Source of the DNA: Candidatus Thorarchaeota archaeon
GTDB lineage: Archaea; Asgardarchaeota; Thorarchaeia; Thorarchaeales; Thorarchaeaceae
Assembly: GCA_003345595.1 (NCBI GenBank)
Contig: PRDI01000025.1
Location: 1 to 53,784, forward strand
Length of the DNA stretch: 53,784 nucleotides
Reading direction: 5' to 3'
In this document: one piece after another, positions 19,055 through 53,285 of the stretch
Layout: the number at the start of each line of letters is the position of its first letter
How positions within the stretch are numbered: position 1 is the stretch's first letter
Program-made: the position numbers and the translations under genes
Notes under the pieces: model-generated
What the model saw: the letters and a program-made list of their open reading frames with translations, nothing else
What the model was told of the DNA's origin: nothing
Database searches by the model: none

Positions 19055-19101
19055 TGCCCTAAGAGCATGATAGGACACACTTCAAGACAGAGAGGACTCA
19101 C

Positions 19102-19281
19102 GCCTTTCTCCTTTCTCCAGACGTAGACTGATATCAACAACAGATAGCCGACAATTGCGGAGTAGATTGCCCATTCTAGAGTTGGGAGCATCAAGAGGTC
19201 GGGACGGTCAGCGAGACTGCCAATGTCACCATAGTCACCGAACAGAAACGCCTCAAAGACTACGACATTGAGAACCCCCTC
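19102..19281 (-). pseudogene. C-terminal fragment of a DUF998 membrane-protein gene
   Basis: On -, 60 codons translate to a sequence that matches the last 60 conserved residues of the 37656 DUF998 protein at 51 positions by eye (LNVVVF.AFLFGDYGDIGSL, MLPTLEWAIY, GYLLLISVYVWRKEKG). The rest of the gene is absent; the frame is fused on both sides to unrelated sequence, giving a 143-codon open frame (19051-19482) that I do not regard as a gene. It lies between the two giant paralogs, and the full-length relative flanks the third giant gene. Confidence 0.8.
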
Positions 19282-19329
19282 GCACAGGAAGAACTCCTCA
19301 ATCCATATCGTCCACTGTGTTTCGTTTCC

Positions 19330-19559
19330 CAAGACTTTGATGAGATCCCACTTGGCCGCTTCTCCTTTCTCGCCCGCACAGCTCGGGAGCTCAATGGCTT
19401 TGGTGCCCAGAAATCTGTGACAAGACACACGTGGCATCAGCTGGCGTGACAGAGCCCCGAATTCCTGCAAGGGGAGTTTCAAGAAGGCTGTAGGAGCAGT
19501 TAATAGGCGCCTTTCGCCGTGGGATAATCCCTTCTTCCTGTTCGCGTGGTTAGCTTTCT
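19330..19559. repeat. Upstream region duplicated ahead of both giant paralogs (copy 2)
   Basis: Counterpart of 12085-12307, with the same order of shared blocks. Copy 2 has extra sequence on its left, where the DUF998 fragment sits; no such fragment is evident to the left of copy 1. Confidence 0.7.
19500..19507 (+). promoter_or_regulatory. TATA-type box of giant surface gene 2 (TTAATAGG)
   Basis: Same TTAATAGGCGC element and spacing as ahead of paralog 1, with conserved CTGTAGGAG just upstream, so the two genes probably share regulation. Confidence 0.55.
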
Positions 19560-32200: not shown

Positions 32201-35200
32201 GATTGAAACGTAATCACTTGGAGCCTGGACATAGTATGAGCCTCCGGGGACTAGCCCATCGATCCAGTATGAGTTGGTAGCAGCGTTTATCTCAAGAACC
32301 CCACCTTGTGCCACATAGTCCTCAAACCACGCTATATTCATGTATAATGCATCCATGAACCAAGAGGGCTGAGCTGATGCAATAACGACTTTCTGATACA
32401 CGCTGAGGTCAACCGTTCCCATTGCAGTATCGTCGTAGAGGACATATGGCACCATCCATAGATCAAGTACCTCTCGAATTGAGCCCAATCCCCACGGATC
32501 TTGGTCTTGGAAGATGGCTACAGGACCATCGAGTTCTAGTTCGAAGACATTCACAGATTGCTGTATGTAGTTATTCGCTAATGTGTCCTCTCCAGCTACT
32601 GGATCGACAAGTGCCTCTATAACATACAGACCCTCATTCAGGGGTGTCCATGGATAAAGGACAGAGTACGATGTATTGTTCTCAAGGACCGGAATGGTTC
32701 CATTAGCCACTCCAGCACCTTCGATATAGATGCCATAAGTCACATTGTACTCTGTGTTCAGTCCCAAGTTCATGACATCTGCGTTGATGAGGACTTCTTC
32801 TCCGGGGTCTGCTGTACGAGGAACATCTAGACTCACGCCTAGATCATGTTCAGGAATCTCATAACTAGACCATGAAATCATGTTATAGACCAGCTGTAGG
32901 TCTTGAGCATTCGACTGGTACTCAGGTATATTCGAGGCGTATACCAGTCCTCGATATGTGATCACAGCTGCAACTCTCTCCTGGCTCGAATCAAGAGCTA
33001 CCATCGACGCTCCTACAAGAGCTGCACTATCCCACCTGATACCTAACGGCAGATACGATAAGGGATAGCCTACTGGATAGGGATTCGACACTCCTTCGAA
33101 GATGGGATGTTCTGGCTCCAGTAGGTCTAGAGACTCGAAATCTATGCCTATAGCAGAATTCGATGTCCAGCCCAGAGTTCCATCAAGACCTAGGAAAGCA
33201 CCCAGTACATCAGGGTGATAGCTGACGCATGAGCTCGTGACGACAAGACCGTGTCCCTCACGCGTGTAGTCAAGAACTGCTTGGAGCTCACTAGAACCCA
33301 GTGGCTGATACATATAGCTCATGATGAGTACATCAGGGCCAAGAGCCTCAACGTCGGCAAGAGTAATCAGTGGAATGTTCAGTGATACGTAATCAATGAA
33401 GATAGGAGTTTGTCCGTAGGCTTCCCAATTCGCATTGATTCTATCCCAGCATGCCATATCCGGACTCTCTGTAAAAAGACCACGTACGACAGCAGCGATT
33501 AGTCTGACTCCCAGGAACTCATGGGCATCCGCATAGCCTGCATGAGTTGCATTGATCTGGATTCTTCCGCTGCTCACCGGATGGACAGTGAACTCGATAA
33601 ACCCGAACTGATCGCTTATTCCAGTTTCATAGACTCCGCAGCCGTCGAGAACTATACTGACATTATCCAAAGGATATCCTTCGTAGAAATCAAAGCAAGA
33701 GATAGATACATTGGATGTAGTATCTCTCTCAAGGAATTCGGGCATGATCTCAAGGCCGATGACAGGCGTTTCGTAGGACACGATGTTTGTTTCGAAAGGT
33801 AAGTAGTCAGCCTTAGTGATATTCACCAGAATGTATCCTGGGACAGTTGGATGAATCGTGATGGTACAGGTCCCATCAGGAAGCGTGTGGTTCTCCGTGC
33901 TCACGCCACAGCCAAATACATCAACCAGTGCCGCTCCAACTGGGGCACCCGTTGCACTATCTGTGACAATCACTTCGACGACTTCAGTACCGCCTGTGAG
34001 TAGTGCATTGTCTGACAAGGAACAGGTCAGACTCGGATATAGTAGGAAATCGACTGCGTTCTTCAGCAGGGTGTTCCTGTCAGAAACATCTACAATAGCA
34101 TCCACTGAGAAGCCAAAGAACACAACCCCACCATTGGTTGCAGTTGGATTCAGTGCCGCGATTGCAGTACCACCTTCATACTCTCCGGAGTAACCACTCA
34201 CATGAGCTGAACCAGATGCGGGCGCTATTACTTCAGCAAACGGAGAACCTAGTCCATCGTCAAGCCATAGAGATGCAGGAAGACCTGAGGTGATTGGATG
34301 AGGCGCGTTCTCCAAATACAAACCACCGGTGTTATCCAACCTCTGCTGCAATTCAACATGGAAGAACGTCGGGAAGATTGCTCCATAAGATGCTTCAAGA
34401 GGAGTCAGAATAGATCCTCCCTCGAAGAGAAGATTGCCGCTCGCGTTATGATACTCCATCAGCACGTCCAGTAGATAGCTATCAGGGGCGATAAGAGGCA
34501 TTCCGTAGTGGTCACCAACCGTGACAATGACCGCATCAAAGAGCTCCAGAAATGCAAGATCAGGGACCAGCTCATATCTGGGTCTGAAAACGTCGACATA
34601 GTATTCATCTTTCAATGCTTGATAGATGTCTCCAAAGTCAGTGGAGTCTCCAGCATTCTCATCAACCCATCCACCCGGATACCAAGGACCATAGCCCCCT
34701 GATTCGTCAGCGATTATCAGGATTTGTCCTCGCATCACTTCGAAGGACACATGACTGCTCCCACCGGATTCTGTGGCAGATACTACCTCAATGTGAAGAG
34801 TCTGAGCTCCGAATGATGTAATGTTGATTGCACCGGAATAGGTGCCTCCTATTACTTCAAAACCCGAAGATGTTATGACGCCACCATTTTGGTTTACAAG
34901 GTAAGCAGTACCATTGCCATCCATGTCACTGAATCCGGAGAAAGCAAGCGGCGCACCATATACTGGTGAGGTGTCGAGAACCACTGACACATTTCCCAGA
35001 CCAATCTGGTACGTTCTCTCGGCCATATACTCAAATGGTTCTGTGAAAGCGAAATGGGCAGTATAAGTTCCGGGATGCTGAGTTGCATTGTGATAGACAG
35101 TAAAGTGCCCTGTGGGGTCCGGAGAAAATCCGCCATCTACAACTGGGTTGCCCAAGGGGTCTTCAATGGTCACATTGACCATGCTCGTTACTGGTAGGTG

Positions 35201-38646: not shown

Positions 38647-39666
38647 TCAGATCAGATCGGTGACTATCTTGGCGGACCACTTCTGTGCAGCAATGGCGTC
38701 CTTATATGTGATCTCCGGTTTCTCCTTTCCGAGACAGGCCTGAACAAAGTGCGCGATGAGCTGCTTGTGACCCCATACCTCAGGACCCTTGGGTTCCAGT
38801 TTCCAGAGCTCCTTTTCGTCACCTTTGCCATAGAGTGTGATCTTGTCGCTCCAATCAACGACTATTGTCTTGCCGTTGTTACCGAATACCTCGAACCTGC
38901 TTGTGTCCTGGCCCTTTGCAACAGAAGAACCGTATATCAGATTGCCGACGACGCCGTTCTTGAGTCTAATGATTCCAACGGTCTGATAACCCTTGAAGCT
39001 ATCGACTCCCTCGACTGGCATATAGCAGGCCGCCCATTTTACGTTCTCTATCTCGGTCTTGAAGAACCATCTGAACATATCGAGAGACCAGACTGATAAC
39101 GTGAAGTCGGGATATCCTCCACTCTTCTTGATATCCCATGCCCATGATGAGAGCGGCCATTGTCTGGCTAGGTCTTCTGCGGCTATGAATTCCCTGAAGG
39201 TCAGGGCGATGGGTTTCCCTATGGCTCCGACTTCGAGGAGTTCTTTTGCTTTCACATAACCAGGTGCGTGCCTGAAATTCAGTATCGGCATAAGCACGAC
39301 GCCCTTCCCCTCAGCGAGTCTGCCCAGTTCCTCAGCCTTCTGAAGCTCAGGTGCCATGGGCATCTCCAAGAACACGTGCTTGCCACCCTCGATCGCCCTC
39401 TTCGCCAGCTCATAGTGATCGGGTGTGGGGACAGCGATGCATACTGCATCCACGTTCGGATCCACGCATACGGCATCCCAATCATAGTAGACATTGATGC
39501 CATACTTTTCTTTCAGCTGGATGGCGATTCTCTCGCTTTCCCGACCTTTTCTGGCGACCACTCCCAACAGCTTCGAATCGGGCACCTTTCTAAATGATGG
39601 GACGTGAGCGGCTCCACCAACAAAACCTAGTCCGGCGCACACAGTGCGTACTTCTTTCTTCGACAA
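38647..39666 (-). CDS. Gfo/Idh/MocA-family oxidoreductase with an EMP in place of the EKP motif
   Basis: A 339-aa NAD(P)-dependent oxidoreductase of the family that acts on sugars, inositols and related polyols. The Rossmann fold shows CAGLGFVGGAAHVPSF (10-25), then DAVCIAVPTPDHYELAKRAI (73-92) and HVFLEMPMA (97-105). In active dehydrogenases the last motif reads E-K-P, where Lys helps bind cofactor and substrate; here it is Met102. The second domain is complete (ITYKDAIAAQKWSAKI near the end). The start is a TTG, supported by AAGGAG (39676-39681 on -) 9 nt upstream. It may handle sugars released by the genes at 41962-48485; the missing Lys means it may be a different catalyst or a binder. 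Confidence 0.87.
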   Translation of the reverse strand: MSKKEVRTVCAGLGFVGGAAHVPSFRKVPDSKLLGVVARKGRESERIAIQLKEKYGINVYYDWDAVCVDPNVDAVCIAVPTPDHYELAKRAIEGGKHVFLEMPMAPELQKAEELGRLAEGKGVVLMPILNFRHAPGYVKAKELLEVGAIGKPIALTFREFIAAEDLARQWPLSSWAWDIKKSGGYPDFTLSVWSLDMFRWFFKTEIENVKWAACYMPVEGVDSFKGYQTVGIIRLKNGVVGNLIYGSSVAKGQDTSRFEVFGNNGKTIVVDWSDKITLYGKGDEKELWKLEPKGPEVWGHKQLIAHFVQACLGKEKPEITYKDAIAAQKWSAKIVTDLI

Positions 39667-40744: not shown

Positions 40745-41695
40745 CTATGTCTGCTGCCCTATCAACACGCCAAGATTCCTTGTAAACACTGGGATATCCT
40801 CGAGCGTTCTAGTGGGTGAGAATCCTCTCATCTTTCTGGAAACGGTCTGACGAATGCTCTCGTCAACTGTCCCTTCTAAGATCGCCTTAGTTTCTTCTTC
40901 GGTGAGGTCTTCGAGCCGCAATGTCCTATTGATTGCATGGCGGTTGGCAGGGCACTTGAGCTGGCATCTCATACATCCCATGAGTGCGTTATGAGCATTG
41001 ACTGGCATCCACTCAGGGAACACTCCTTCAACCTCATTGTACAAAGGCACGCATCTGCTGATGTTTATGACGAAGTTGTCTTCGGTTATGCATCCATTCG
41101 GGCACTCTTTCATGCAGACTGTGCACTTCTTGCATTTGTCCATCATCCGCATATCGGTCCAGTCATCATGCTCGAAAGTGAAGTCTGTGAAGTAAGCGTG
41201 GAGTGTGACCAGGCTGCCCATCCCGTCAACGTAGCACAGGTTGTTTCTGCCATACCTACCAAGTCCGCTTCTCACGGCAAGCGTCTTCATGAGCACCTGC
41301 CCGTTGGCCTTCTCGATCCTGTGACCCGGCTCATCTATGATTCTCCGGGCAACGGTGTTCTGTAATTGCTCTTGCGAGAACCCGATGTCATAGTAAGCAG
41401 GAGGTACTAAGAACTCAAGGCGCCGCCCCTTATGATAGAATCCAGCAACTGCCAATGGAGTGAAGACAGCCATGATGATCAGAGATTGTGCGTTAGGGAA
41501 CGACTCAGGAATCGCGAATCTCTTGCCATCTACGTAGCTCCTGAAGGTCTTGTCCTCGCACATCTTGCCCTCGCGATACAGTGTGTCGATATGTTTCTGG
41601 AGCTCAGTCAAATGCTCGACAGAGGTAGCCCTAAACCTAAAGTGCGACTCAGGTACGTTCCCATCTTTGGATTGAGCTTTTGTTTTCTCAGTCAT
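40745..41695 (-). CDS. QueG-like double [4Fe-4S] protein, possible corrinoid reductase or activator
   Basis: A 316-aa cytoplasmic protein. Residues 139-154 (LAVRSGLGRYGRNNLC) match the 'aaraGLGwiGkn' element of epoxyqueuosine reductase (QueG) and reductive dehalogenase relatives. Cys188, 191, 194 and 198 (CKKCTVCMKEC) and Cys241, 244 and 248 (CMRCQLKC), with Cys215 between, give two ferredoxin-type [4Fe-4S] sites. QueG itself uses cobalamin, so a role on the corrinoid of the nearby methyltransferase system is plausible: such systems need reductive reactivation when cobalt oxidises. It lacks the C-terminal HEAT repeats of true QueG, which argues against tRNA modification. The activator role is inference from neighbourhood (4 kb from the corrinoid protein gene) and fold. 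Confidence 0.75.
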   Translation of the reverse strand: MTEKTKAQSKDGNVPESHFRFRATSVEHLTELQKHIDTLYREGKMCEDKTFRSYVDGKRFAIPESFPNAQSLIIMAVFTPLAVAGFYHKGRRLEFLVPPAYYDIGFSQEQLQNTVARRIIDEPGHRIEKANGQVLMKTLAVRSGLGRYGRNNLCYVDGMGSLVTLHAYFTDFTFEHDDWTDMRMMDKCKKCTVCMKECPNGCITEDNFVINISRCVPLYNEVEGVFPEWMPVNAHNALMGCMRCQLKCPANRHAINRTLRLEDLTEEETKAILEGTVDESIRQTVSRKMRGFSPTRTLEDIPVFTRNLGVLIGQQT

Positions 41696-41903
41696 TACTT
41701 ATGCCTCAACACTACTCAGTCTAGCCTTCCGACGGATAAGCGACAGATGCAGGGCTTCTCGACCCTCGAATGCAGACTAAGAAGGATTGGTTCAGCGCAA
41801 TGAATAGGCAGTCAGGAATGCTTGGCTGCTCCAGTTACAGAGCAGGCTGTTTGCCTGGTCAGCGTCCCTTCGACTTGAATTAGCTCAGTGACGCCATGCT
41901 GAT

Positions 41904-41911
41904 TTAATAGG
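41904..41911 (+). promoter_or_regulatory. TATA-type box of the sugar symporter gene (TTAATAGG)
   Basis: TTAATAGG, with TT upstream, would start transcription near 41931. This is the same box used before the giant surface genes. It is divergent from the QueG-like gene. Confidence 0.5.
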
Positions 41912-41961
41912 GGCTTCTTCACATCGGCTGGCATTTCCATTTGCTGCCAATGGTGATAGAA

Positions 41962-43374
41962 ATGGAATCCGCGGGCCTAGAGAAGCTGAGTCGCAGAAAC
42001 CTCTGGGGATGGGCATTGGGTTCTATCCCTACCGGTTTGTTGGCCTATATCTTCAGTCTCAAGTATGTTGAGTACTTCTACAATAATCTGGCCCTAGCCC
42101 CACTATACTTCATCATCGGGCAAGCAATCTATCTTGTCGTCAATGCGGTGAACGATCCCCTCGCAGGACAGTTGTCTGACCGGACGAGCCGAAAGCGATG
42201 GGGCAGCCGGCGCCTGATATACATAAAGTATGGCGGTCCAATTTGGGCATGGACCTTCCTATTGGTGTGGTTTCCATGGAGTTTCAACAACCAGATAGTC
42301 ATTTTCATTCACTACGTTGTGTCACTCTGTGCTTTTGACACGATGCTCACAATCGTGCTGTTGGTATGGTTGGCTGTCCTACCTGAGATGACCATGGACA
42401 TCGATGAGCGAAACAAGGCGCAGTTCATCGCAGGAGTGATGGGCACGATTGTGGTCTTGCCTGTGTTCATCGTAATTGCTGCCATGAGACCGGACTCAGA
42501 AGGGTTCCGGTTCCTGATGATCCTGTTTGCTGTCATCTCGATGGTATTCCTAGAGCTGACAGCGCACTTCTGCCACGAGCGCCCCGAATTCCAGAGTGAC
42601 AGAGTGTACTCTCTGAAGGAGTCTGTCAAGGCGACCTTCAAATCGAAGACGTTTCTGGTCTATGTTGGTTTCTATTTCTGTCAGAACTTCCTCAGCACCT
42701 TGGGCCTGAGTTACTTCTTCATCTACATGCTGCTGCTCCAGAAAGTGACACCTGGATTGAACGTCGTACTGTTCTTCTTTGTGATATACTTCATCGTGGG
42801 CTATGCGGGCAACATCGTGTGCATGAAGCTTCAACGCAAGTGGGGACTGAGAAGAATCATCCTAAGATTCGGAGTTGTTCGAGTAGTTGGCTCGATAGTT
42901 CTGTTTCTGATAATCCTCGTTCCCATATTCGAGCCGCTGATATGGTATGGACTCGTCGTCGTCACCTTCTTCGGTGGCTACGGCATCTTCCAGATTCCAA
43001 TGCAATATCTAGCCATAGATGAGGATGAAATCCTCTGCGGCTCCCGGAGGGAAGGCATGTTCATTGGAGTAATGGCTCTGTTGACCAAGCCCGCGAACAG
43101 CCTTGGCCCAATCATTGCAACGATGATACTAACGACATTCGGCTATATCCAAGGCGGTGCTCTTGCAGTTCAGCCCGAGTCAGCGTTCTTGGGAATAAAG
43201 ATCATCTGGCTCTTGGTTTCAGGAATCGTGGCGTCTTTGGGTCTGGTTTCTATCTACTATTATCCTCTTCATGGCGAGAAACTAGATGAGATGCAGAGAA
43301 AGCTGACTGAACTGCACAAGCGGAAAAGAGAGGCTGTCTTGGGGCAAGTCCAATCAGCTAAGGGGTCCTCCTGA
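41962..43374 (+). CDS. GPH-family (MelB-like) sugar:cation symporter
   Basis: A membrane transporter of about 470 aa with twelve predicted helices. The GPH/MFS_2 mark is the loop after helix 2: NAVNDPLAGQLSDRTSRKRW, with the Asp-rich 'D.laG..sDrt.tr.G.rrp' pattern, and NNLALAPLYFIIGQAIYLVV just before it. It should import a glycoside or sugar with a cation. Three starts are possible: TTG 41941, ATG 41950 and ATG 41962; I prefer the last because GGTGAT (41952-41957) lies four bases ahead and the protein then begins just before the first helix. Its neighbours are corrinoid methyltransferase and phosphorylase genes, which suggests a modified sugar as substrate; that is inference. Confidence 0.85.
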   Translation: MESAGLEKLSRRNLWGWALGSIPTGLLAYIFSLKYVEYFYNNLALAPLYFIIGQAIYLVVNAVNDPLAGQLSDRTSRKRWGSRRLIYIKYGGPIWAWTFLLVWFPWSFNNQIVIFIHYVVSLCAFDTMLTIVLLVWLAVLPEMTMDIDERNKAQFIAGVMGTIVVLPVFIVIAAMRPDSEGFRFLMILFAVISMVFLELTAHFCHERPEFQSDRVYSLKESVKATFKSKTFLVYVGFYFCQNFLSTLGLSYFFIYMLLLQKVTPGLNVVLFFFVIYFIVGYAGNIVCMKLQRKWGLRRIILRFGVVRVVGSIVLFLIILVPIFEPLIWYGLVVVTFFGGYGIFQIPMQYLAIDEDEILCGSRREGMFIGVMALLTKPANSLGPIIATMILTTFGYIQGGALAVQPESAFLGIKIIWLLVSGIVASLGLVSIYYYPLHGEKLDEMQRKLTELHKRKREAVLGQVQSAKGSS

Positions 43375-43404
43375 GGCTAGGTCCTCCAATCATCGAATGC
43401 GTCG

Positions 43405-43431
43405 GGCGTTCTGGGTTTTCCCAGATGCGCC
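43405..43431. terminator. Hairpin between convergent genes
   Basis: GGCG-T-TCTGGG pairs with CCCAGA-TG-CGCC (43405-43415 with 43420-43431) around a TTTT loop: ten pairs with one internal mismatch. It lies 30 nt after the symporter stop and before the end of the small - strand gene. No T-run follows. Confidence 0.45.
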
Positions 43432-43518
43432 AATGTAGTATGAGGGCGTTTGCCAAGAACCTATATCGGATGCGTGCCATACTACTCTCGGATTTCCATC
43501 ACGCGCCATGAAGTCTTT

Positions 43519-43719
43519 TCATAATGACAGTGAAAGCTTGGAATCCTTGACAGCGTGTTTTGTTATCTCAAGATTGCACGATCTGTGCTTTATGCACCAT
43601 TCCTCACACTTCTTTGCCCAGTGCTCATCATGGTACAGCAGATGGCACTGCTGACATTCGTAGAGATCGCCTACCTTCTTCATAATCCAGCGTTCAACCT
43701 GAATCAAAACAGATGTCAT
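43519..43719 (-). CDS. Small Cys-rich, probably zinc-binding protein
   Basis: A 66-aa protein whose centre, YECQQCHLLYHDEHWAKKC, followed by EWCIKHRSCNLEITKHA, has a CxxC pair, then single Cys and His residues at regular steps. This looks like a small conserved prokaryotic zinc-type protein found as a stand-alone gene; I know no function. The frame starts at ATG 43717-43719; the ATG at 43681-43683 (MKKVGDLYECQQC) fits the conserved part better. Neither has a strong ribosome site. It lies alone between the symporter and methyltransferase genes. Confidence 0.6.
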   Translation of the reverse strand: MTSVLIQVERWIMKKVGDLYECQQCHLLYHDEHWAKKCEEWCIKHRSCNLEITKHAVKDSKLSLSL

Positions 43720-43815
43720 GATAGAAGAACCTGTGGGAAGGGATAAGGAGTGCTGTTCGCACGCAGAATCAAAAGACGCTCCAGAATCTATCCCGGTTCT
43801 CTGCAGAACGGCCGA

Positions 43816-44982
43816 CTAGTCGGGAATCCGTATTGGATACGAGCCATACTTCTCGCGCACTCTCATCACAGCCTCCCATCTGTCCACTGTGATGGCTGGA
43901 TTGATGCTGTGGCCGCTACTAAAAATGTAGCCGCCGCCAGGCGCGAGTTCTCTTATCAGCCGCTTGCTGTATTCCTCGATTTCGGTAACTGTCCCCACGG
44001 CAAGCATCACCGGGCTGATGTTTCCCACGAAGGTAATCTTGTCCTTGTACTTCTCTGCAAGTCTGAAGATGTCGTAATCGGGGTTGGCAGTCGTGGGTTC
44101 GATAGGATTGAGTGCATCCACGCCGCACTTTATGATGTCTTCAAAGATTAGCATCAGATCCCCATCCGAATGCAGGAGTATTCTGGAGTCCCGTTTGTGA
44201 GCTTCATCGCACATCTGTTTCAACCATGGGAACACATAGGTTCTGTAGTTCTGAGGGCTCATGAACAGGCCGTTCTTGAAGCCGTAGTCATCCCATACCA
44301 GAATCAGTTCAGCCCCCTGGTCTGCGAGAATCTTCACGAGCTCCACAGCCAGCTTGCCATTGTCGTCAAATACCTTCTTGGCTTGCTTCGGGTGTCCGAG
44401 TATTCGAGAGAACGTTTCAAGACCGAAGGCTTCCCAGCTTGGTTCCATCATTCCTCCTATTGCGGGAACTGAGAGTATCTCATTATTCATCTGCTTTTGG
44501 ACGTCCTTGCCGGCGAGAAATGCAGCCAACCTCTTTGGTTCGTTCGGGTCCGGACGTTCCCACTTCTCGTAGTCCTCAAAGCTGTGAAGATGGCCTCCAC
44601 GATATCCAAGGATCAGTGTGCCATCTCCTTCGTATTTCTCGAATTTCATCAAACGCCCGAACTCATCGATCATACCACCCTCGACGATCTTCCGCTGCTG
44701 ATGCGTGACGAAGCTTAGACCGATGTCAATCTTGACGCGACGTAGAAACTCATAGGAATTGACCATGCCCTTCGCTAACCATGAACGATTGCTCATGGCG
44801 TAGTTGGCTACTCGCGTCTTGAAAGGGAGGTGCTTGAGAGCATCTATCCCAGAACTCAGGCCAGCAGCCGCAATGCCATAATGTTCCATAATCGTGTTAT
44901 TAGTGAATGCACTCTCGAATGCAGGTACGCGATCAGGTTCTTCGTGATTTAGGGCCTTCATCACCCGTGTTGGTGCGTCCAT
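43816..44982 (-). CDS. URO-D/MtaA-like corrinoid methyltransferase (HSD-type site)
   Basis: A 388-aa TIM-barrel protein of the uroporphyrinogen decarboxylase superfamily, in the branch used for methyl transfer to and from corrinoid proteins. The start RVMKALNHEEPDRVPAFE is typical ('R...al.hk.pDRvP'). At the usual zinc position it reads LLHSDGDLM: the His is kept but the Cys two residues on is Asp; the last ligand position has FSSGHSINP (His instead of Cys). So it departs from the His-x-Cys...Cys set of MtaA. It lies 5 nt after the corrinoid protein gene on the same strand, so the two form an operon and are probable partners. Methyl donor and acceptor are unknown. Confidence 0.85.
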   Translation of the reverse strand: MDAPTRVMKALNHEEPDRVPAFESAFTNNTIMEHYGIAAAGLSSGIDALKHLPFKTRVANYAMSNRSWLAKGMVNSYEFLRRVKIDIGLSFVTHQQRKIVEGGMIDEFGRLMKFEKYEGDGTLILGYRGGHLHSFEDYEKWERPDPNEPKRLAAFLAGKDVQKQMNNEILSVPAIGGMMEPSWEAFGLETFSRILGHPKQAKKVFDDNGKLAVELVKILADQGAELILVWDDYGFKNGLFMSPQNYRTYVFPWLKQMCDEAHKRDSRILLHSDGDLMLIFEDIIKCGVDALNPIEPTTANPDYDIFRLAEKYKDKITFVGNISPVMLAVGTVTEIEEYSKRLIRELAPGGGYIFSSGHSINPAITVDRWEAVMRVREKYGSYPIRIPD

Positions 44983-44987
44983 CGACT

Positions 44988-45593
44988 CTAGACCCCCATG
45001 AGAGCCTTGATATGCCTCACTCCATCGATGGCATCAGCGGCGTAGTCGTCTGCGCCCAGTTCTTCGGCGAGCTCCATGTTCAGTGGTGCTCCTCCGACAA
45101 TTATCTTCACCTTGTCGCGGAGGCCAGCGTGTTTGAGGGCTTCGCCAATGACCGAAATCTCTCTCATCGTCATTGTCAACAGACAGCTCAGTGCAAGAAC
45201 CTTGGCATCATGCTTTCTCATGGCTTCAACGATCTTCTCGCTTGGACAATCCACTCCAAGGTCAATGACCTCAAACCCTGCGGAAACGAGCATGGTGATC
45301 AGGATGTTCTTGCCAATGTCGTGATTGTCCCCCTTTACAGTGGCCACAACAATTGGCTTTCTCTTGCCCTTCTCCTTGACTGTCAAGCGCGGCTTCAGAA
45401 CGTCAAATGCCTCCTTCATGGTTTCGCCGGCTAAAACGAGCTCAGTGAGGAAGTACTCCTTCTGCTCATACCTGCGTCCAACTTCATCCATGCCTGCTGT
45501 GAGAGCCTTCAAGACATCATTGGGGTCCACATGTTTCTCAAGCTCCTGCTGGACTGACTTGGCGATGTTGTCCACATCTAGCTCTACAATCAT
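44988..45593 (-). CDS. Corrinoid (B12-binding) methyltransferase protein, MtaC/MtbC type
   Basis: A 201-aa carrier that holds a methyl group on cobalt. The N-terminal half is the helical cap (about 1-80, with DPNDVLKALTAGMDEVGRRY and YFLTELVLAGETMKEAFDVL). The C-terminal half is the Rossmann-like B12 domain: GDNHDIGKN (88-96), with the cobalt-binding His91 in the family's DxHxxG motif, then LALSCLLTMTMREI and IIVGGAPLN, which hold the base and tail of the cofactor. ATG start, first gene of a two-gene operon with the methyltransferase at 43816. It is divergent from the phosphorylase gene at 45729. The only corrinoid protein in the window, it may serve all three URO-D-type enzymes. Confidence 0.93.
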   Translation of the reverse strand: MIVELDVDNIAKSVQQELEKHVDPNDVLKALTAGMDEVGRRYEQKEYFLTELVLAGETMKEAFDVLKPRLTVKEKGKRKPIVVATVKGDNHDIGKNILITMLVSAGFEVIDLGVDCPSEKIVEAMRKHDAKVLALSCLLTMTMREISVIGEALKHAGLRDKVKIIVGGAPLNMELAEELGADDYAADAIDGVRHIKALMGV

Positions 45594-45612
45594 CTTTGTT
45601 ATGTCGTCAAGA

Positions 45613-45620
45613 GTAATAAT
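45613..45620 (-). promoter_or_regulatory. TATA-type box of the corrinoid operon
   Basis: ATTATTAC on - lies about 25 nt before the ATG at 45593, so the message would be leaderless or nearly so. On + the region also holds AT-rich GTTAATGA (45692-45699) as a possible box for the phosphorylase gene. Confidence 0.45.
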
Positions 45621-45728
45621 ACGCCAGCTCCTGCAATTGTCGTTGCTTCTCGCCCTCTGCAGAACGCAGTAATATCCTTTGTTTCACAGAAGGTTAATGA
45701 CCACCTTTGGACTCGTCAACGAAGCAGG

Positions 45729-48485
45729 ATGATGGTACCCATGTCAAGCAAGCCATTCGGATCAGGCCATTTCGGTGAGTGGATCACAGACGAATTCGGT
45801 CTGCCTGCGTATCACTATACCTGCAATCAACTCACAGACCCCAAGGCACATACACCTACGAATGAGCTCTGGCGCTCTCCTACGGAGCATTTACATCAGG
45901 TTGGGAATGATAGACTTGTCGGTGTTGCTTCGAATTATGGACATGTTCAGGTTCGGCAGGATGAAGGGAGTCCGAAGTTCCTGAATGACTACGACCCCGC
46001 GAGCCATCAATACGGCGGCGGGTTCGGGTATTTGACAGATGGCAAGACTGTACTCAGTACCTACTACTCCGGGAAGGCCGAATCCTTTGACAGAGTCTTT
46101 GGCGCAGGATACTACAGAAAGACAGTCAAGGGAAACGGGCTGGTAGTGGACCATGCTGTCTTTGCTCCCTATGGCGACGATCCCATTCTTATCTCGAAGG
46201 TCACGATAGAGAATCAACGGGAAGAGCCTGCGGATCTGAGATGGATCGAGTATTGGGGTTGTCAGCTGTATCAGTTTTCATACAAAGCATTCATGCGGTC
46301 TGTCGTATCAAAGAAGCATCCTAACCTCTATCGTAGAAGACTCGCAACGCGGTTTGCAGACCATATCAGTGTCCTGAGTAGCGGAAGAGGGCTGGAAGTC
46401 AAGAAACAATTCATGGGTCATGCCCTGCCTGACATGTTAGGATGGGGGTTTCTGAATTTCATGCTGAATTTCGTGGGAAAGGAAATGACTGGTGGACCAG
46501 TCAGATCCCCAGTGAAACAGGCAGTGCTCGAAGACCTCTCTCCTCCAGACGTTTTCCTCGTATCTCTCGATGCGCCCTGTGATGCCGTGTGCACCAATGC
46601 GGCAGGTTTCTTTGGTGAGGGAGGCGTGGTTTCGCCTGACGGCATACGGGGTTTTCTATCTGAGAACGTTGAGGGAAGTGGCCCAGAGACAGGTCTCTTC
46701 CTCGAGCGGCGTGCCCATCTGAAGCCCGGCGAGAGCAGGTCGATGTACTTTGCCTATGGTTATCTGCCCGAAGGCTTCACTCTTGAGTCTCTCATCTCGA
46801 AATATGAGAAAGATCTTCCTCAGTTGTTGAGCCGATCGTGCGAACAATGGAAGAAAAACCGCATCCAGCTGGACGTCGGTGATGAGAAGTGGGTCGATCG
46901 CGAACTCGCATGGCACAATTACTACCTGAGAAGCAACCTCACGTATGATAGCTTCTTCAGAGAGCACATTCTATCTCAGGGGCATGTGTACCAGTACCTG
47001 ATCGGATTCCAAGGTGGAGCGCGTGACCCGCTGCAACACGCTCTACCATTCGTATACTCCGACCCGACCATTGTGAAGGAAGTTCTGAGGTACACCTTAA
47101 AGTCGATGACCCCTGACGGCAAGATTCCGTATGGCATTGTTGGCTGTGGGATGTACATGCCATCGCCGTTCCATCCAAGTGATCAGGAGATGTGGCTCCT
47201 TTGGCTCGCCGGCGAGTACGTGCTCGCCACGAGAGACTTGGCGTTTCTGAACGAGGTCATCCCAACGTATCCGGTGTATGGTCACAAGGCGAGGACCATG
47301 CGCGTCGACGATCTCCTGTCCGCCTGCTATCGTCGACTGGTTGTATTGACAGGGGTCGGGCAACACGGCATTCAGAGACTGGTGAAGGGTGACTGGAATG
47401 ACATGATGGTCATGGGATACGTTCCGAAGGAGCAACGTCCAGTTGTCGAGGAAGTCGGTGAGAGCGTTCTCAATGCGGCAATGGCCACATATGTCTTCGA
47501 CGTTTATTCAAGGCTGCTGACCTATGCAGGTAACAAGAGTCTGGCGGAGGATGTCATGAAACATGCCGCCGCTCAGCGGTCCGCGGTACAAGCACAGTGG
47601 ATGGGCAAGTGGTTCAAGAGGGCATGGCTCAGCGAGGATATCGGATGGGTCGGAGAGGACAATCTCTGGTTGGAACCGCAGCCCTGGGCTATCATTGGGG
47701 AATCTGTGGACTCTGAGCAAAGACGGATTCTAGTACAGTGGATAGACAAGGAAGCAAGAAAGCCATCGAAGATAGGTGCCATGATTCTTGGAAAAGCAGA
47801 CCCAAAGATGGTCGGCCCAACAGGAGTGGGAACGAATGCGGGGATATGGCCCTCAATAAATGGTACCCTCGTATGGGCTCTGTCGCTCGTGGATGGTAAG
47901 ATGGCGTGGAACGAATGGAAGAAGAACACGCTTGCCACGCATGCTGAGGAATACCCAGATATCTGGTATGGTATCTGGAGCGGCCCCGACACCTACAACT
48001 CTGAACTCTCCGTTCGTCCAGGAGAAACCATCTTCGGTACCGAAGACGAGATTCCTCATGAAACCGATGAAGAGAAAGCCAAGGACTCCGACATCGGTAA
48101 GATCTTCGAGGTCAAATGGACAGACTTTCCAGTGATGAACATGCATCCGCATGCATGGCCCCTCTACAGTGTTGCCAAGCTCATGGGAACAGAATTCACT
48201 GAGCAGGGGGTCGACCTCGCTCCATCGCTGCCGAAGGACGAATACAGGTTTACGTCTCCTCTGCTCGAGCTGGAGAAAACAAAGCAAGGTTACCGAGGTA
48301 GGTATTCGCCAATGACTGCAGGGACTTGGAGAATCACGCTCAAGCTTGGTGAGAAAGAGCGGAACCGAGTCAGTGTTTTGACTGTTAATGGAAAGGATCA
48401 GAAGCTGACCTCTGAAGGCGACAAGGTTGTGCTGACTGGAGCAAGCGCGCCAGACCGGCCGCTCACATGGTCGCTCAGATTCTGA
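45729..48485 (+). CDS. GH94-like glycoside phosphorylase
   Basis: A 918-aa cytoplasmic protein of the GH94/GH36-like (cellobiose phosphorylase type) group, which cleaves or makes beta-glucosidic bonds with phosphate. The N-terminus FGSGHFGEWITDEFGLPAYH matches the usual 'yG.fd...rEyvIt.p.tP' start, followed by a large beta-sandwich with PKFLNDYDPASHQYGGGFGY. The (alpha/alpha)6 barrel shows HVYQYLIGFQGGARDPLQH and LVKGDWND (Asp555, Asp558), the 'GDWNDg' motif where GH94 enzymes keep the catalytic Asp. A C-terminal beta-sandwich ends with PDRPLTWSLRF. It has no signal peptide. The homologous start may be the fifth codon (ATG 45741). Two URO-D methyltransferase genes follow on the same strand. 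The sugar is unknown. Confidence 0.85.
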   Translation: MMVPMSSKPFGSGHFGEWITDEFGLPAYHYTCNQLTDPKAHTPTNELWRSPTEHLHQVGNDRLVGVASNYGHVQVRQDEGSPKFLNDYDPASHQYGGGFGYLTDGKTVLSTYYSGKAESFDRVFGAGYYRKTVKGNGLVVDHAVFAPYGDDPILISKVTIENQREEPADLRWIEYWGCQLYQFSYKAFMRSVVSKKHPNLYRRRLATRFADHISVLSSGRGLEVKKQFMGHALPDMLGWGFLNFMLNFVGKEMTGGPVRSPVKQAVLEDLSPPDVFLVSLDAPCDAVCTNAAGFFGEGGVVSPDGIRGFLSENVEGSGPETGLFLERRAHLKPGESRSMYFAYGYLPEGFTLESLISKYEKDLPQLLSRSCEQWKKNRIQLDVGDEKWVDRELAWHNYYLRSNLTYDSFFREHILSQGHVYQYLIGFQGGARDPLQHALPFVYSDPTIVKEVLRYTLKSMTPDGKIPYGIVGCGMYMPSPFHPSDQEMWLLWLAGEYVLATRDLAFLNEVIPTYPVYGHKARTMRVDDLLSACYRRLVVLTGVGQHGIQRLVKGDWNDMMVMGYVPKEQRPVVEEVGESVLNAAMATYVFDVYSRLLTYAGNKSLAEDVMKHAAAQRSAVQAQWMGKWFKRAWLSEDIGWVGEDNLWLEPQPWAIIGESVDSEQRRILVQWIDKEARKPSKIGAMILGKADPKMVGPTGVGTNAGIWPSINGTLVWALSLVDGKMAWNEWKKNTLATHAEEYPDIWYGIWSGPDTYNSELSVRPGETIFGTEDEIPHETDEEKAKDSDIGKIFEVKWTDFPVMNMHPHAWPLYSVAKLMGTEFTEQGVDLAPSLPKDEYRFTSPLLELEKTKQGYRGRYSPMTAGTWRITLKLGEKERNRVSVLTVNGKDQKLTSEGDKVVLTGASAPDRPLTWSLRF

Positions 48486-48527
48486 CATAACGTGAAGTAG
48501 CAGCGTTTCAAGAGATGTCGATTGAGA

Positions 48528-49571
48528 ATGAAACCACTTGACCTCACCCTGTCAGCAATTGATGGCACTGCGGAGAGAGTCCCGTTCAATCCATTCATCA
48601 TGCATCTCGCGGCGGCAATTGACGGCATTGATTACAGCGGAATCTACTGCCAGGATGCAGATGTCCTTGCAGAGGCTCAGACGAAGTGTGCCAGGACCTT
48701 CGGCGTTGATCATGTCAATGTATCGACGGACGCTTACAGAGAAGCCAGTGCATGGGGCATTGAGATAGACTTCTCTGGTCACACGCCTGTAGCCAAGACT
48801 CATCTGGATCCAGCCGGCTTTGAGTCGGTCGAGAAACCTGATCTACAATCCAGTCCCAGAATCAAGAATCGAGTCGAAGCCGTGCGGCTTCTCAAGCGCA
48901 GTGTGGGCAACGAGCAATGCATCGTGGGATGGATAGAAGCCCCGTTCGCAGAGATATGCTGCCTGTTTGGTCTCATGGAAGTGCTAAAGCTGGGACGTAA
49001 TCCGAAGTGGAACGAGATGGTTAAGGACTTCACCAAACGAGTCATCCCTGTTCAGCTGGAGTTCGCCGAGATGCAGATTGAAGCGGGTGCAGACATCATC
49101 GGAGTGGGAGATTCGGCGGTTTCTCAGATAGGTCCCAAGCGCTACAAGGAGGCATGCCTCGAATCAACACAGAAACTGCTCAAGGACATCGCCAAGCAGG
49201 TGCCTGTCCTTTACCACGTTTGCGGAGATAGCTCAGTGGTTGACAAAGAAGGACGATCCATGCTCGAGCTTGTCGCCGACTCAGGGACTTCCATTCTGGA
49301 CATTGACTATCAAGTTGATATGACCACAGCCAAGCAGAAGATTGGCGACAGGGTGTGCATCCGAGGAAACACAAACACTGCTATGCTTGGCGATCGCCTG
49401 TATTCGCCAACAAGGATAATCGGCGAGGTCACGCGGACTATCAAAGCCGGCAAGCCAGGAGGAAAGTACATGTTCTCTGCAGGATGTGAATGGCCTTGGG
49501 AACCTATTGATCTTGCTGCACGCAATCTGGGGATTGCCCGGACTCTGGTCGAGCGAATCGGTGGATACTGA
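48528..49571 (+). CDS. URO-D/MtaA-like corrinoid methyltransferase (His-x-Cys...Cys site)
   Basis: A protein of 347 aa in the uroporphyrinogen decarboxylase superfamily. It keeps a complete MtaA-like zinc set: His230 and Cys232 in LYHVCGDSS and Cys320 in FSAGCEWPWE. MtaA has His, Cys and Cys at almost the same positions. This zinc activates a thiol acceptor such as coenzyme M in MtaA, so this protein is the best candidate here for methyl transfer from the corrinoid to a thiol. The ATG at 48528 is preferred over a TTG two codons earlier. It starts 42 nt after the phosphorylase gene and its stop is one base before the next gene's ATG, so all three read as an operon. No other coenzyme-M or methanogenesis gene is in view, so the acceptor is open. 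Confidence 0.87.
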   Translation: MKPLDLTLSAIDGTAERVPFNPFIMHLAAAIDGIDYSGIYCQDADVLAEAQTKCARTFGVDHVNVSTDAYREASAWGIEIDFSGHTPVAKTHLDPAGFESVEKPDLQSSPRIKNRVEAVRLLKRSVGNEQCIVGWIEAPFAEICCLFGLMEVLKLGRNPKWNEMVKDFTKRVIPVQLEFAEMQIEAGADIIGVGDSAVSQIGPKRYKEACLESTQKLLKDIAKQVPVLYHVCGDSSVVDKEGRSMLELVADSGTSILDIDYQVDMTTAKQKIGDRVCIRGNTNTAMLGDRLYSPTRIIGEVTRTIKAGKPGGKYMFSAGCEWPWEPIDLAARNLGIARTLVERIGGY

Positions 49572-49572
49572 C

Positions 49573-50745
49573 ATGAACTCACGCCAAAGGGTACTCGCGG
49601 CACTGGATCATCAGACACCGGATAAGGTCCCACTTGATTTTGGCGGAAACCAGTCAGGCATTCACATCATAGCCTACAAACGACTGCTTCAGTACCTCGA
49701 CATCGAGGACAAGGAGATATGCTATTGCGACTTCTTGGAACAAGCGGTGCGACCGTGCGAGGAGCTGCTGAAACACTTCGAGATAGATGTCCGATGGTTG
49801 AGGCCGGAGTCCAGTATTGTCCCTGAGGACTTCGTCCCGCAAGTGGAGGGCAAGTACCAAGGTGTGTATGACCAGTTCGGAGTGTTCTGGGGAGATAATG
49901 CAGAGAAGAAGATTGAGGACATCCTGTACTATGATCCTGTCATCCATCCCCTGAGTGAGATGAAGACTGTACAGGAGATCAAGGAGTACAACTGGCCTGA
50001 TGGCACTGACAAGAAACGGATGAAGGGTTTGAGAGAGGAAGCCAGGCGGCTCAGAAGAACCACTGACTATGCCATTGCCACTCCGCCGCTCGGATGCATC
50101 TATGAATATACGACATTTCTGTTCGGGTTTGCGAAAGCATTGAGGCATCTGCAAAAGAACCCGGAACTGATAGTCGCCACCATGGAAGAGCTGGAGAAGT
50201 ACTGGACCGACTACGCGACTGCATTCCTCGATGAGGTCAAGTTCGGAAACGAGCACTATGTGGACATAGTAGCCAACAATGGAGACCTCGCCCAGCAAGG
50301 AGGTCCCATAATGAACCCGAAGACAATCTACGAACCGTTGATCAAGCCAATCGAAAAACGATTCTCAGCAAGAGTGCACTCTCTAGCTAATGTCAAAATC
50401 AACTATCATTGCTGTGGGTCGATACCTCTCTTCATTCCACACTTCGCTGAAATTGGATACGATGCCGTGAATCCTGTCCAGGTCGGTGCATATGACATGG
50501 AGCCGTGCAGTCTTAAGAAGCGATTTGGGGAATTGATTACATTCTGGGGCGGCATGTGTGATACTCAGAGTACTCTGCCTTTCGGCACGCCTGAGAAGGT
50601 TCGTGATGAGGTGCATCACAATGTGGCGTGCCTCAAGCCAGGCGGCGGATACATCGCGGCCAATGTACATAACATAACCGGAGAGGTGCCAGCCGAGAAC
50701 ATAGTGGCAATGTTCGAAACTGCGAGAGAGTTCAGAGGATATTAG
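49573..50745 (+). CDS. URO-D/MtaA-like corrinoid methyltransferase (His-Cys-Cys site)
   Basis: A 390-aa protein of the same superfamily, with the standard opening MNSRQRVLAALDHQTPDKVP and a barrel ending in GGGYIAANVHNITGEVPAEN. The zinc-type position reads NYHCCGSI, so His-x-Cys is kept with an extra Cys between; the third Cys of MtaA is replaced by the VHN segment. The frame is open upstream to 49486, but the ATG at 49573 follows the previous stop (TGA 49569-49571) by one base and gives the family start. This pattern is typical of the substrate-side members of the group, so it may take the methyl group from the methylated substrate; that is inference. Sequence match to the other two in the window is low. 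Confidence 0.87.
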   Translation: MNSRQRVLAALDHQTPDKVPLDFGGNQSGIHIIAYKRLLQYLDIEDKEICYCDFLEQAVRPCEELLKHFEIDVRWLRPESSIVPEDFVPQVEGKYQGVYDQFGVFWGDNAEKKIEDILYYDPVIHPLSEMKTVQEIKEYNWPDGTDKKRMKGLREEARRLRRTTDYAIATPPLGCIYEYTTFLFGFAKALRHLQKNPELIVATMEELEKYWTDYATAFLDEVKFGNEHYVDIVANNGDLAQQGGPIMNPKTIYEPLIKPIEKRFSARVHSLANVKINYHCCGSIPLFIPHFAEIGYDAVNPVQVGAYDMEPCSLKKRFGELITFWGGMCDTQSTLPFGTPEKVRDEVHHNVACLKPGGGYIAANVHNITGEVPAENIVAMFETAREFRGY

Positions 50746-50948
50746 TGGCTCTCTGTTGTTGACGGTTTCTCCCTTGGACAGCCAACTGCAGTCGAGTGAC
50801 TGCAAATCCGGTTATATTCCTCATGATTTCCCACCGGAATGTGTCAGCCTTCCCGGAAGCATCTGCAACCCGCTTTTCCGCATACACTCCAGACAGCATT
50901 CATTCATAACTGTCCTTCTACATATCCACAGCCGAGGTCTCATGTGGT

Positions 50949-53285
50949 TTGAAGCACAACAAGGAGTCGATGCTGGGAGTAGGAATCATGACTATTTTCC
51001 TGTTGAGCTCTGTCATGTGCCCTGCTGCTGCAGCACTGACTGTAATCAATGAAGAGCAGTTTGAACGTGTCTATACTCCGAACGCCAATAATCACACGTA
51101 CGTCTATGCCGAGCCTGATGTGCTATCGGGGGTGACCACGTCGACGCTGCATGTTAATCAGGATCTTCAAATGAGGAGATACGCGTTTGATGGCACGGGC
51201 TGGACTTACTATGACGCAGCTTACCCAGGACCCAATGATGTGCCATTTCCCTGGAGCGCATTCAATGTCTGGGCAGGTACCACCTTCACCAACACGTCGA
51301 TACTGCCCTCCTTCATCACCGCTGTTGCGGCGGACGGCGGACCGGCTGTCTTGAACTCGACACTTACGCGTTCGTCATTCGAACTCAAGATGGGACAGCT
51401 TTCGACTCTGGTCCTCGAACCCAATCTGTACTACTTTGGAGTGCTCGGGATTGCCGCTGAGGAGTTCATATATCTCACAGTTTCCTCCAGACAAGTCAAT
51501 TCCCCGAGCTGGCAAGTCACGGTTGTTGACCCTGCGGGCCATTTCATGGGGAGCATCGAAGGGTCTGAGAATGCCAGCACTGTTCTCCCATTCAGACCAT
51601 CGGGACCGGGTACGTACTTCGTCATGATAATTGGCGAAGCGAACTCTCAGAGCCTGCTCATCTTCGATCTGTTGCCACAAGCAGTGGCACCCACACAAGT
51701 GGCGTTTGGCCAACTCGTGCAGGGCGTTCTCGAGGATAGTGAGTTCGTGGTCACGAGTGATTCCGGAACGGTGGTTGATACTAAGAAGACTCCAGCAGCC
51801 CACACATACAAGTTCTACTCACAAGAGGTGGCATTGATATCTTACTCATTCAACTACCCGGGTGAGAGCGAGCCCGTCGATCCACCCATAGGGACGCGGA
51901 TAGAACTCTCCAGCGATGCATTCACGTCCATGTTTGATTACGGCCAGAGGTACAACAACATAATCAACTCACCACAAAGCAGCATCCTGTACTACCGATC
52001 CTCAAACGGAGAAACGTACTACCTTACCGTGATTGGACCTGGCAATGTCAAGTACACGCTGTTCCACGAAGACAACGTCGCTCAGGACCTGCCTGTGAAC
52101 CAAGAGTTATCTGTGATAAACAACCAGGGCTATGCGGTGAAGAGCGCCTACAGCCTATACCTGTCTCAGGACTCTTTCATGAAGCTGAACTCCAGTGCAT
52201 TGTTAGCAGAATACGCTTGGAGAGCGTGGGCAGTCTACGGCAATGATATGTACATTTCCCAGAACCTGCAATGGGCGGCCACACTTCAGTCCTCCTCGTT
52301 CTACTACCTCCCCGCGGGATATTATGTCTTCGAAGTCACAGCTGGTCCTGATACATCTGCTCAGTTCGAGTTCAACATCGGACCGGTAGTCGACGCGTCC
52401 ACGGCCAGTATCGCGAGAGTGGGCGGCTTCCGTGTGAATACAGATACGATGACTTATTACAATACAACTCTGAAGCTGCTGAATCTTGCCAACATCACAG
52501 TAAGAGCCAACTTGGCGTTCTACGACCGATACATGATTCTTTCGTCCAGTTCGACCCCGATACTGGCAAACCGTGTGAACGGAACCCACTGGGCTCCGCA
52601 TCCCTCCTACAGCAACTCCACGAGCTTTGTGACTACGAACACATTGACAGAGGGGTACTCTCTCGTCGCAGTGTGTACCTACAGGGTGTCTAACAACACT
52701 CAAGGAGCGACAAACGACTATTCCGACTATGAAGTCAATTACGGTATCGAATGTGTGGATTACACCAGTAGCTACTTCAACGGTACATTCAATCTTGATG
52801 TTGGCGCTGGCCCCGTAGAACACAACTTCACACTGCCACTCCCCGGAGAGACAACAGAGAACTATCAGGTTGGACTAAGCGTACCCAAGGGTATCTGGTT
52901 CAATGTCACCATCATAGCTCATGATGCTGACACTTTCTCCGCAGTCCTTCTTCAGAACTGGCAGTCCAGATCACACAGGACTCAGTGGGCGGATCTCAAC
53001 GATGAACTTGTGGGGAGCATTGGAACACAGCTATCGTTCCAATTTGGCTCGATAAGTGACTCGATGAAACTGATCCTCAGTGTTGGCAGAGACCTGTCCG
53101 ACAACGGGTCATTATATGTGAGGATTACGCCTTTCAACACCACCACCTTCATAGGTCCCCCTGTGCTGACTGTGGGACCGCCTGACTTCCTGTCTGGCCT
53201 TTTGGTCTATGCAGTTCCGATTGCGATTGGCGCTGCGGCAATCGTGATAGTAGCAGTTGTCTATTTCAAGAAGTACAAGAAATAG
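50949..53285 (+). CDS. Exported, membrane-anchored beta-rich protein of unknown function
   Basis: A 778-aa protein with a signal peptide (hydrophobic run MLGVGIMTIFLLSSVMCPA, then AAA), a long Ser/Thr/Asn-rich exterior with repeated beta-type patterns such as GTYFVMIIGEANSQSLLIFD and YYVFEVTAGPDTSAQFEFNI, and a C-terminal membrane helix (about 750-772) with a KKYKK tail. The repeats have the spacing of jelly-roll or pre-peptidase C-terminal type modules ('yyv.v....g...y.l'), but I cannot name a family. Start: TTG 50949 gives a proper basic n-region (MKHNKES); the ATG at 50970, behind AAGGAG, gives a shorter one without charge. It follows the methyltransferase genes by 203 bp and is probably a separate unit. 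Confidence 0.75.
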   Translation: MKHNKESMLGVGIMTIFLLSSVMCPAAAALTVINEEQFERVYTPNANNHTYVYAEPDVLSGVTTSTLHVNQDLQMRRYAFDGTGWTYYDAAYPGPNDVPFPWSAFNVWAGTTFTNTSILPSFITAVAADGGPAVLNSTLTRSSFELKMGQLSTLVLEPNLYYFGVLGIAAEEFIYLTVSSRQVNSPSWQVTVVDPAGHFMGSIEGSENASTVLPFRPSGPGTYFVMIIGEANSQSLLIFDLLPQAVAPTQVAFGQLVQGVLEDSEFVVTSDSGTVVDTKKTPAAHTYKFYSQEVALISYSFNYPGESEPVDPPIGTRIELSSDAFTSMFDYGQRYNNIINSPQSSILYYRSSNGETYYLTVIGPGNVKYTLFHEDNVAQDLPVNQELSVINNQGYAVKSAYSLYLSQDSFMKLNSSALLAEYAWRAWAVYGNDMYISQNLQWAATLQSSSFYYLPAGYYVFEVTAGPDTSAQFEFNIGPVVDASTASIARVGGFRVNTDTMTYYNTTLKLLNLANITVRANLAFYDRYMILSSSSTPILANRVNGTHWAPHPSYSNSTSFVTTNTLTEGYSLVAVCTYRVSNNTQGATNDYSDYEVNYGIECVDYTSSYFNGTFNLDVGAGPVEHNFTLPLPGETTENYQVGLSVPKGIWFNVTIIAHDADTFSAVLLQNWQSRSHRTQWADLNDELVGSIGTQLSFQFGSISDSMKLILSVGRDLSDNGSLYVRITPFNTTTFIGPPVLTVGPPDFLSGLLVYAVPIAIGAAAIVIVAVVYFKKYKK

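Follow-up and report, generated by a model that had tools for sequence, protein, structure and literature searches.

A conserved six-gene cluster of Thorarchaeota joins URO-D and corrinoid proteins to a GH94-fold enzyme and a GPH symporter: a possible route for demethylation of methylated sugars

The DNA analysed here (the window) is the 53,784-nucleotide contig PRDI01000025.1 of a Candidatus Thorarchaeota archaeon (assembly GCA_003345595.1), contig C25 of a draft genome of this Asgard group that comprises 2.73 Mb in 129 contigs. A core of six genes, which spans positions 41941–50745, encodes a symporter, a corrinoid protein, an enzyme with the fold of glycoside hydrolase family 94 (GH94) and three proteins of the URO-D superfamily, called here U1, U2 and U3. 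All genes named in the initial annotation of this region were recovered as open frames in the expected places and families. The core is arranged as follows, with family matches in brackets:

41941–43374, plus strand: GPH/MFS_2-type cation symporter (MFS_2, 7e-42)
43816–44982, minus strand: U1, URO-D superfamily protein (URO-D, 7e-29)
44988–45593, minus strand: corrinoid protein of the MtbC/MtgC/MtaC type (B12-binding, 8e-25; B12-binding_2, 4e-17)
45594–45728: divergent intergenic region of 135 bp that separates the corrinoid-U1 pair from the GH94-U2-U3 operon
45729–48485, plus strand: GH94-fold enzyme of 918 amino acids (GH94 superfamily)
48522–49571, plus strand: U2, MtaA-like URO-D protein (URO-D, 1e-45)
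49573–50745, plus strand: U3, URO-D superfamily protein (URO-D, 7e-17)

The symporter gene is convergent with U1 and the corrinoid gene, and the GH94-like gene, U2 and U3 follow beyond the divergent gap. The start of U3 is likely the ATG at 49573, two bases past the stop codon of U2.

The six genes form a conserved, co-inherited unit. The family sample consisted of 47 genomes from 13 genera, and the completeness of the seven genomes that carry the cluster is 74–93%. Conserved adjacency in close relatives, which the initial annotation had proposed to look for, was found, with order and orientation kept across genera. Orthologues of the six genes in other Thorarchaeota, U1 included, show 58–81% identity and mostly unchanged order. 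Within the reach of the contigs, genomes G006 (a single contig), G030, G033, G035 and G011 show these neighbours in an unchanged order and orientation; the only departure seen is in G011, which has no GPH homologue after U1. The set of G034 is divided into two parts about 90 kb apart, GPH-U1-corrinoid and GH94-U2-U3, with the usual order within each half. The divergent arrangement around the intergenic region is kept at loci L012, L014, L015, L017 and L023, a symporter orthologue lies beside U1 at L013, L014, L015, L069 and L090, and complete loci have U1 and the corrinoid gene side by side, including L090 with its divided cluster. The six-gene arrangement is also present in independent metagenome-assembled genomes (MAGs), one of them a single-contig chromosome (CP070761.1).

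The GH94-like protein was detected in 7 of the 47 genomes, across five of the 13 genera. Orthologues of U3 (about 68–75% identity) occur in precisely these seven genomes, and all others reach at most 40%. If the two genes were independent, such identical sets would have a chance probability of 1.6e-8, a rough figure because the genomes are related. Orthologues of U1 (74–81%) were found in six of the seven genomes, and the contig of the seventh stops short of U1.

The analysis of the URO-D proteins showed that none of them is a true heme-pathway enzyme, a point which the initial annotation had singled out for checking. The NCBIfam hemE model gave 36 bits for U1, 77 bits for U2 and no hit for U3, far under the cut-off of 303, and the HemE identity was rejected for all three. 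The alignments also bore out that the metal-site residues differ among them: HSD..H in U1, HVC..C in U2 and HCC..H in U3. The candidate residues are H271, D273 and H358 in U1 (H-x-D...H), H232, C234 and C322 in U2 (H-x-C...C, invariant in seven orthologues), and H278, C280 and H365 in U3 (H-x-C...H), numbered after alignment A4, the first row of which begins at the second residue of U3. U2 scored 82 bits with the mtaA_cmuA model, under the cut-off of 235. The predicted model of U1 (mean predicted local distance difference test, pLDDT, 78; predicted template modelling score, pTM, 0.85) has its nearest fold in MtaA of M. mazei (4ay8, template modelling (TM) score 0.72), with HemE next, and the C-terminal part of U1 weakly resembles CdmB (E 3e-7). 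U1 may act as the first methyltransferase (MT1) that partners the corrinoid protein, U3 is perhaps a second MT1, and U2 is a candidate for thiol-dependent methyl transfer. In the phylogenetic tree, U1, U2, U3 and the Lokiarchaeota URO-D proteins are four separate, well-supported clades, and the bacterial neighbours fall in several others, with long branches that make the deeper joins unsure. Because the URO-D neighbours fall in separate clades, the joining of URO-D genes to the GH94-like family seems to have been repeated.

The corrinoid protein contains B12-binding domains and, as was claimed for this MtaC-type protein, keeps the histidine of the cobalt-ligand position at residue 91 (DNHDIG). 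Its pyl_corrinoid score is 169 bits and does not reach the cut-off of 215. RACo-type activator domains (RACo_C_ter) and MtrH homologues, the latter one to four per genome, are encoded outside the cluster in all seven cluster genomes, and together they would fit a Wood-Ljungdahl pathway supplied with methyl groups in the manner of Mto systems. ComA was not found in the seven genomes, in which other coenzyme M routes were not searched. This absence makes coenzyme M less likely as the acceptor for U2, at the genome completeness given above and with other routes in existence. Second RACo-type copies are present at G030:C148:73199-73963 and G011:C309:4458-5222, with one TAG and one TAA inside the match. 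Another corrinoid methyltransferase locus lies on contig C59 of the host (L020, 7680–12260), where genes for an MTTB-family protein (PF06253) and a corrinoid protein stand with those of two further URO-D proteins.

The Pfam GH94 catalytic model matched the GH94-like protein at model positions 122–309 of 420 only, covering the first half of the protein. Its predicted model (pLDDT 88, pTM 0.91) has the (alpha/alpha)6 GH94 fold and is nearest to a GH94 cellobiose phosphorylase (TM 0.76, 17% identity). An alignment to NdvB and chitobiose phosphorylase shows that the general acid D558 is kept, as are W556, R432-D433 and N703, and D558, which corresponds to Asp490 of CgCBP, is invariant among the GH94-like homologues. 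The phosphate site of CgCBP is formed by Arg351, His666, Thr731 and Gly732 (PMC5501786). The last three are replaced by S709, M805 and H806; at the position of Arg351 the GH94-like proteins have no conserved Arg, in an alignment that joins distant proteins and is uncertain there, so that single-residue statements around it are weak. D754 and D799 are invariant across 32 GH94-like homologues and are candidate bases of an inverting hydrolase. Eight acidobacterial and gammaproteobacterial homologues begin with an RR motif of the twin-arginine translocation (Tat) type, a signal which would fit a hydrolase and not a phosphorylase; no signal peptide was seen in the Asgard enzymes. No URO-D gene was found at any of the eight Tat-type loci (L032, L033, L044, L047, L050, L053, L054 and L061). 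Given these changes at the phosphate site and the Tat signals of acidobacterial homologues, the GH94-fold enzyme is likelier to be a glycoside hydrolase, and the phosphorolysis ascribed to it in the initial annotation is doubtful, with the catalytic Asp and the sugar-site residues kept. The host encodes a GH94-like paralogue on contig C64 (L019, 8176–10938, minus strand) with 30% identity and a shared GIWSGPD motif; no URO-D gene accompanies it, and it adjoins an HpaB-type hydroxylase and an LRR protein.

The symporter scored 143.8 with MFS_2 (threshold 27) and 91 bits with TIGR00792, below the cut-off of 231. Judged by these scores it is a distant member of the GPH family, and it likely imports a glycoside.

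When named genomes were scanned with the GH94-like alignment, 56 loci emerged. Most of the six genes have close counterparts in Helarchaeota (L023, L067) and Hermodarchaeota (L055, L069); L067 is without U2, and neither Helarchaeota locus has a GPH gene nearby. In many Lokiarchaeota the GH94-like gene is accompanied by a GPH symporter (about 41%), a sulfatase and one URO-D protein of a different clade. Other Lokiarchaeota loci (L048, L062, L068, L072) contain two Gfo/Idh proteins and no URO-D, and L048 additionally a sulfatase, a SPASM radical SAM protein and an IlvD/Edd dehydratase; loci of this type possibly represent a different route for a similar sugar. At the Helarchaeota locus L067 (525–9673), genes for an FAD-linked oxidase, a CCG Fe-S protein, an HGD-D (2-hydroxyacyl-CoA dehydratase-like) protein and two BcrAD/BadFG ATPases lie upstream of the GH94-like gene, and the two ATPases could offer another source of low-potential electrons.

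Among Bacteria, an Anaerolineales locus combines GH5, GH31, three URO-D genes, the GH94-like gene, a corrinoid protein and two GH3 genes. A Bacillota locus has the GH94-like gene with URO-D and corrinoid genes, and a Bacteroidia locus has it with URO-D, PfkB and RhaT. A Coriobacteriia locus has the GH94-like gene with a GPH-type transporter and a URO-D gene, and no other URO-D gene was found in that genome. The neighbours of the distant GH94-like relatives are sugar genes (GH5, GH31, GH3, RhaT, PfkB, sulfatase, IlvD/Edd and GPH). At the eight bacterial loci with genome-wide counts, six URO-D genes were observed and 0.27 expected (P about 4e-7), and URO-D was present at four of the eight (P about 5e-5); the Poisson estimate behind the first figure ignores the clustering of URO-D genes, and its P-value is too favourable, as half of the loci were chosen after a neighbouring URO-D gene had been noticed. 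In Anaerolineales, one URO-D protein (L026, 11490–13142) has a fused SCP2 sterol-carrier domain.

From these genes we infer substrate, methyl acceptor and activity alike: the cluster may carry out the anaerobic, corrinoid-dependent demethylation of O-methylated sugars or glycosides, a reading to which we assign a probability of about 0.52. The GPH symporter would bring in a methylated glycoside, and the GH94-fold enzyme would open the glycosidic bond, probably by hydrolysis rather than phosphorolysis. U1, U3 or both would transfer the ether methyl group to the Co(I) of the corrinoid protein. From the methyl-corrinoid, the methyl group could pass via U2 to a thiol acceptor as one-carbon (C1) carrier; alternatively, MtrH-type enzymes from outside the cluster could hand it to tetrahydromethanopterin and the Wood-Ljungdahl pathway. 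The RACo-type activators, also encoded elsewhere, would re-reduce the cobalt. What stands of the sugar-linked demethylation set first proposed is the conserved unit in which the GPH symporter and the GH94-fold enzyme go with the corrinoid protein and three URO-D proteins other than HemE, together with a sugar link seen again, beside other URO-D lineages, in unrelated phyla; phosphorolysis is not supported, and the QueG-like and Gfo/Idh proteins do not belong to the unit.

Several observations weigh against this reading. The cluster contains no second methyltransferase (MT2) of the MtoA/MtrH kind, every NCBIfam score of its members is under the cut-off and none is close to a characterised enzyme, and for U3 no sequence relative was found in the PDB at E<=0.01. 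The Lokiarchaeota loci are without an adjacent corrinoid gene, and the acidobacterial GH94-like versions are apparently secreted. No URO-D gene is present at half of the examined bacterial GH94-like loci or at some of those in Lokiarchaeota, so that the GH94-like enzyme would also work without URO-D.

The nearest known kind of system is the URO-D/corrinoid O-demethylase, the known donors of which are methoxy-aromatics and halomethanes. The Mto system (MtoABCD) of Methermicoccus shengliensis and Archaeoglobus fulgidus acts on methoxy-aromatics (PMC8630106, PMC8359953). Its operons (MtoB1/B2-MtoC-MtoA-MtoD-MFS) are paralleled by the gene set described here in two MT1 copies, a small free-standing corrinoid protein, an MFS transporter, an anaerobic archaeal host and an ATP-dependent activator in the genome. 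However, the Mto operon includes MtoA and MtoD and no glycoside enzyme, whereas the present cluster has the GPH symporter and the GH94-fold enzyme as constant partners, an added MtaA-like U2 and neither MtoA nor an activator. Related members of the CdmBCA chloromethane system have been reported in Asgard archaea of the Sigynarchaeales (PMC13222342). Like CmuA, this system pairs an MT1 of the URO-D superfamily with a corrinoid protein, but CdmB is without a metal site, U1–U3 keep metal-site candidates, and no sugar genes accompany CdmBCA. Among the hits listed by a plasmid search for CmuA, none bore that name. U2 has the H-x-C...C of MtaA and MtbA, and the fold of U1 is nearest to M. mazei MtaA; the differences are family scores far under the cut-offs and the missing ComA. 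The GH94-like protein has the fold, general acid Asp, sugar-site Arg-Asp, Trp and Asn in common with the cellobiose and chitobiose phosphorylases, but the phosphate-binding His, Thr and Gly are replaced and many bacterial homologues are apparently secreted. Marine aerobes are known to strip a sugar of its methyl ether before they catabolise it: an unrelated enzyme, a P450, demethylates 6-O-methyl-D-galactose with oxygen and yields formaldehyde (PMC10033563). The constant coupling to GPH and GH94-fold genes and the sugar genes near distant relatives set the cluster apart from the known O-demethylases. A description of corrinoid-dependent sugar demethylation was not found in the open-access papers searched, an incomplete collection that lacks most subscription journals.

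The cluster might instead handle glycosides of methoxylated aromatics (lignin-type phenol glucosides), from which the GH94-fold enzyme would free the aglycone and the URO-D/corrinoid proteins would remove aryl methyl groups, as in the Mto, Odm and Vdm systems. The functionally closest MT1s of URO-D type (MtoB, MtvB, VdmB and OdmB) do use methoxy-aromatics and are accompanied by MFS transporters. We nevertheless consider this unlikely, given that no aromatic-degradation gene was seen beside the core in the Thorarchaeota loci, that the genes annotated around distant relatives encode mainly glycosidases, sulfatases and sugar transporters, and that U1–U3 are without strong similarity to characterised methyltransferases. 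The E-X14-E-X20-H zinc motif of VdmB-type enzymes was searched for in U1, U2 and U3 and is not present in them. It also seems improbable that the URO-D/corrinoid set performs no substrate demethylation, and supplies methyl groups for biosynthesis (methionine) or catalyses a non-methyl reaction, being co-inherited with the sugar genes for regulatory reasons. Such a role would agree with the large URO-D clades of unknown substrate and with a thiol-type zinc motif in U2 while ComA was not found; against it, different URO-D lineages repeatedly and independently pair with the GH94-like family, which suggests a common substrate and not a housekeeping role.

A true phosphorylase that yields sugar 1-phosphate is equally improbable for the GH94-like enzyme. 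GH94 members are mostly phosphorylases, the closest fold and the kept general acid and sugar-site residues agree with this activity, and so does the lack of a visible signal peptide in the Asgard enzymes. The Ser, Met and His at the phosphate site argue against it, as do the lack of a conserved Arg near the uncertainly aligned Arg351 position and the RR start of eight homologues, since a secreted phosphorylase makes little sense. Finally, the window comes from a draft MAG in many contigs, where genes could become neighbours by chance. This explanation was rejected as having next to no probability, on the basis of the conserved order repeated in independent MAGs including CP070761.1, the counterparts in three Asgard groups and the perfect co-occurrence in seven of seven genomes among the 47.

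Two genes that flank the core had been included in the initial annotation:

38647–39666, minus strand: Gfo/Idh protein (family match)
40745–41695, minus strand: QueG/Fer4_16-like protein (family match)

The QueG-like protein had been suggested to re-reduce cobalt. Its gene is absent from the other cluster loci, its orthologues in 13 genomes, mostly cluster-free, are located elsewhere in the genome, and RACo-type activators exist, so that it was rejected as corrinoid reductase. The Gfo/Idh gene is not linked at the relatives' loci and was likewise rejected as a member, both genes being chance neighbours; some Lokiarchaeota GH94-like genes do have accompanying Gfo/Idh pairs. In the window (40745–53285) the cluster sits between the QueG-like gene and the gene of a 778-amino-acid protein. 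In the cluster-free sister genome G013 (L089, 8483–12805), a QueG-like gene lies about 1 kb from a 35%-identical homologue of that protein. The comparison of these neighbours (767 and 778 amino acids) is only suggestive of an unoccupied counterpart of the site, as the orientation of the larger gene differs and the identity is 35%. The window also encodes two tandem giant proteins of 2248 and 2187 amino acids (12308–26123), 70% identical and with TSP3-type repeats, and a protein of 3670 amino acids (26288–37300) with C25 (gingipain-type) peptidase, CARDB and NosD/beta-helix domains.

Methyl ethers are common in plant and algal polysaccharides, and the published removal that we found is the oxygen-dependent P450 reaction (PMC10033563). 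More tentatively, at somewhat under even odds, the cluster may stand for an undescribed anaerobic cleavage of sugar methyl ethers by dedicated URO-D/corrinoid methyltransferases, by which Asgard archaea and some bacteria would pass methyl groups of methylated, perhaps sulfated, polysaccharides to the Wood-Ljungdahl pathway, with a new family of GH94-fold hydrolases as partner. The cluster marks a GH94-fold family with a probable loss of phosphorolysis and offers a substrate lead for the large URO-D clades of unknown function. If true, a dedicated anaerobic route would explain the use of buried methylated carbohydrate and would be a new C1 source for Asgard archaea.

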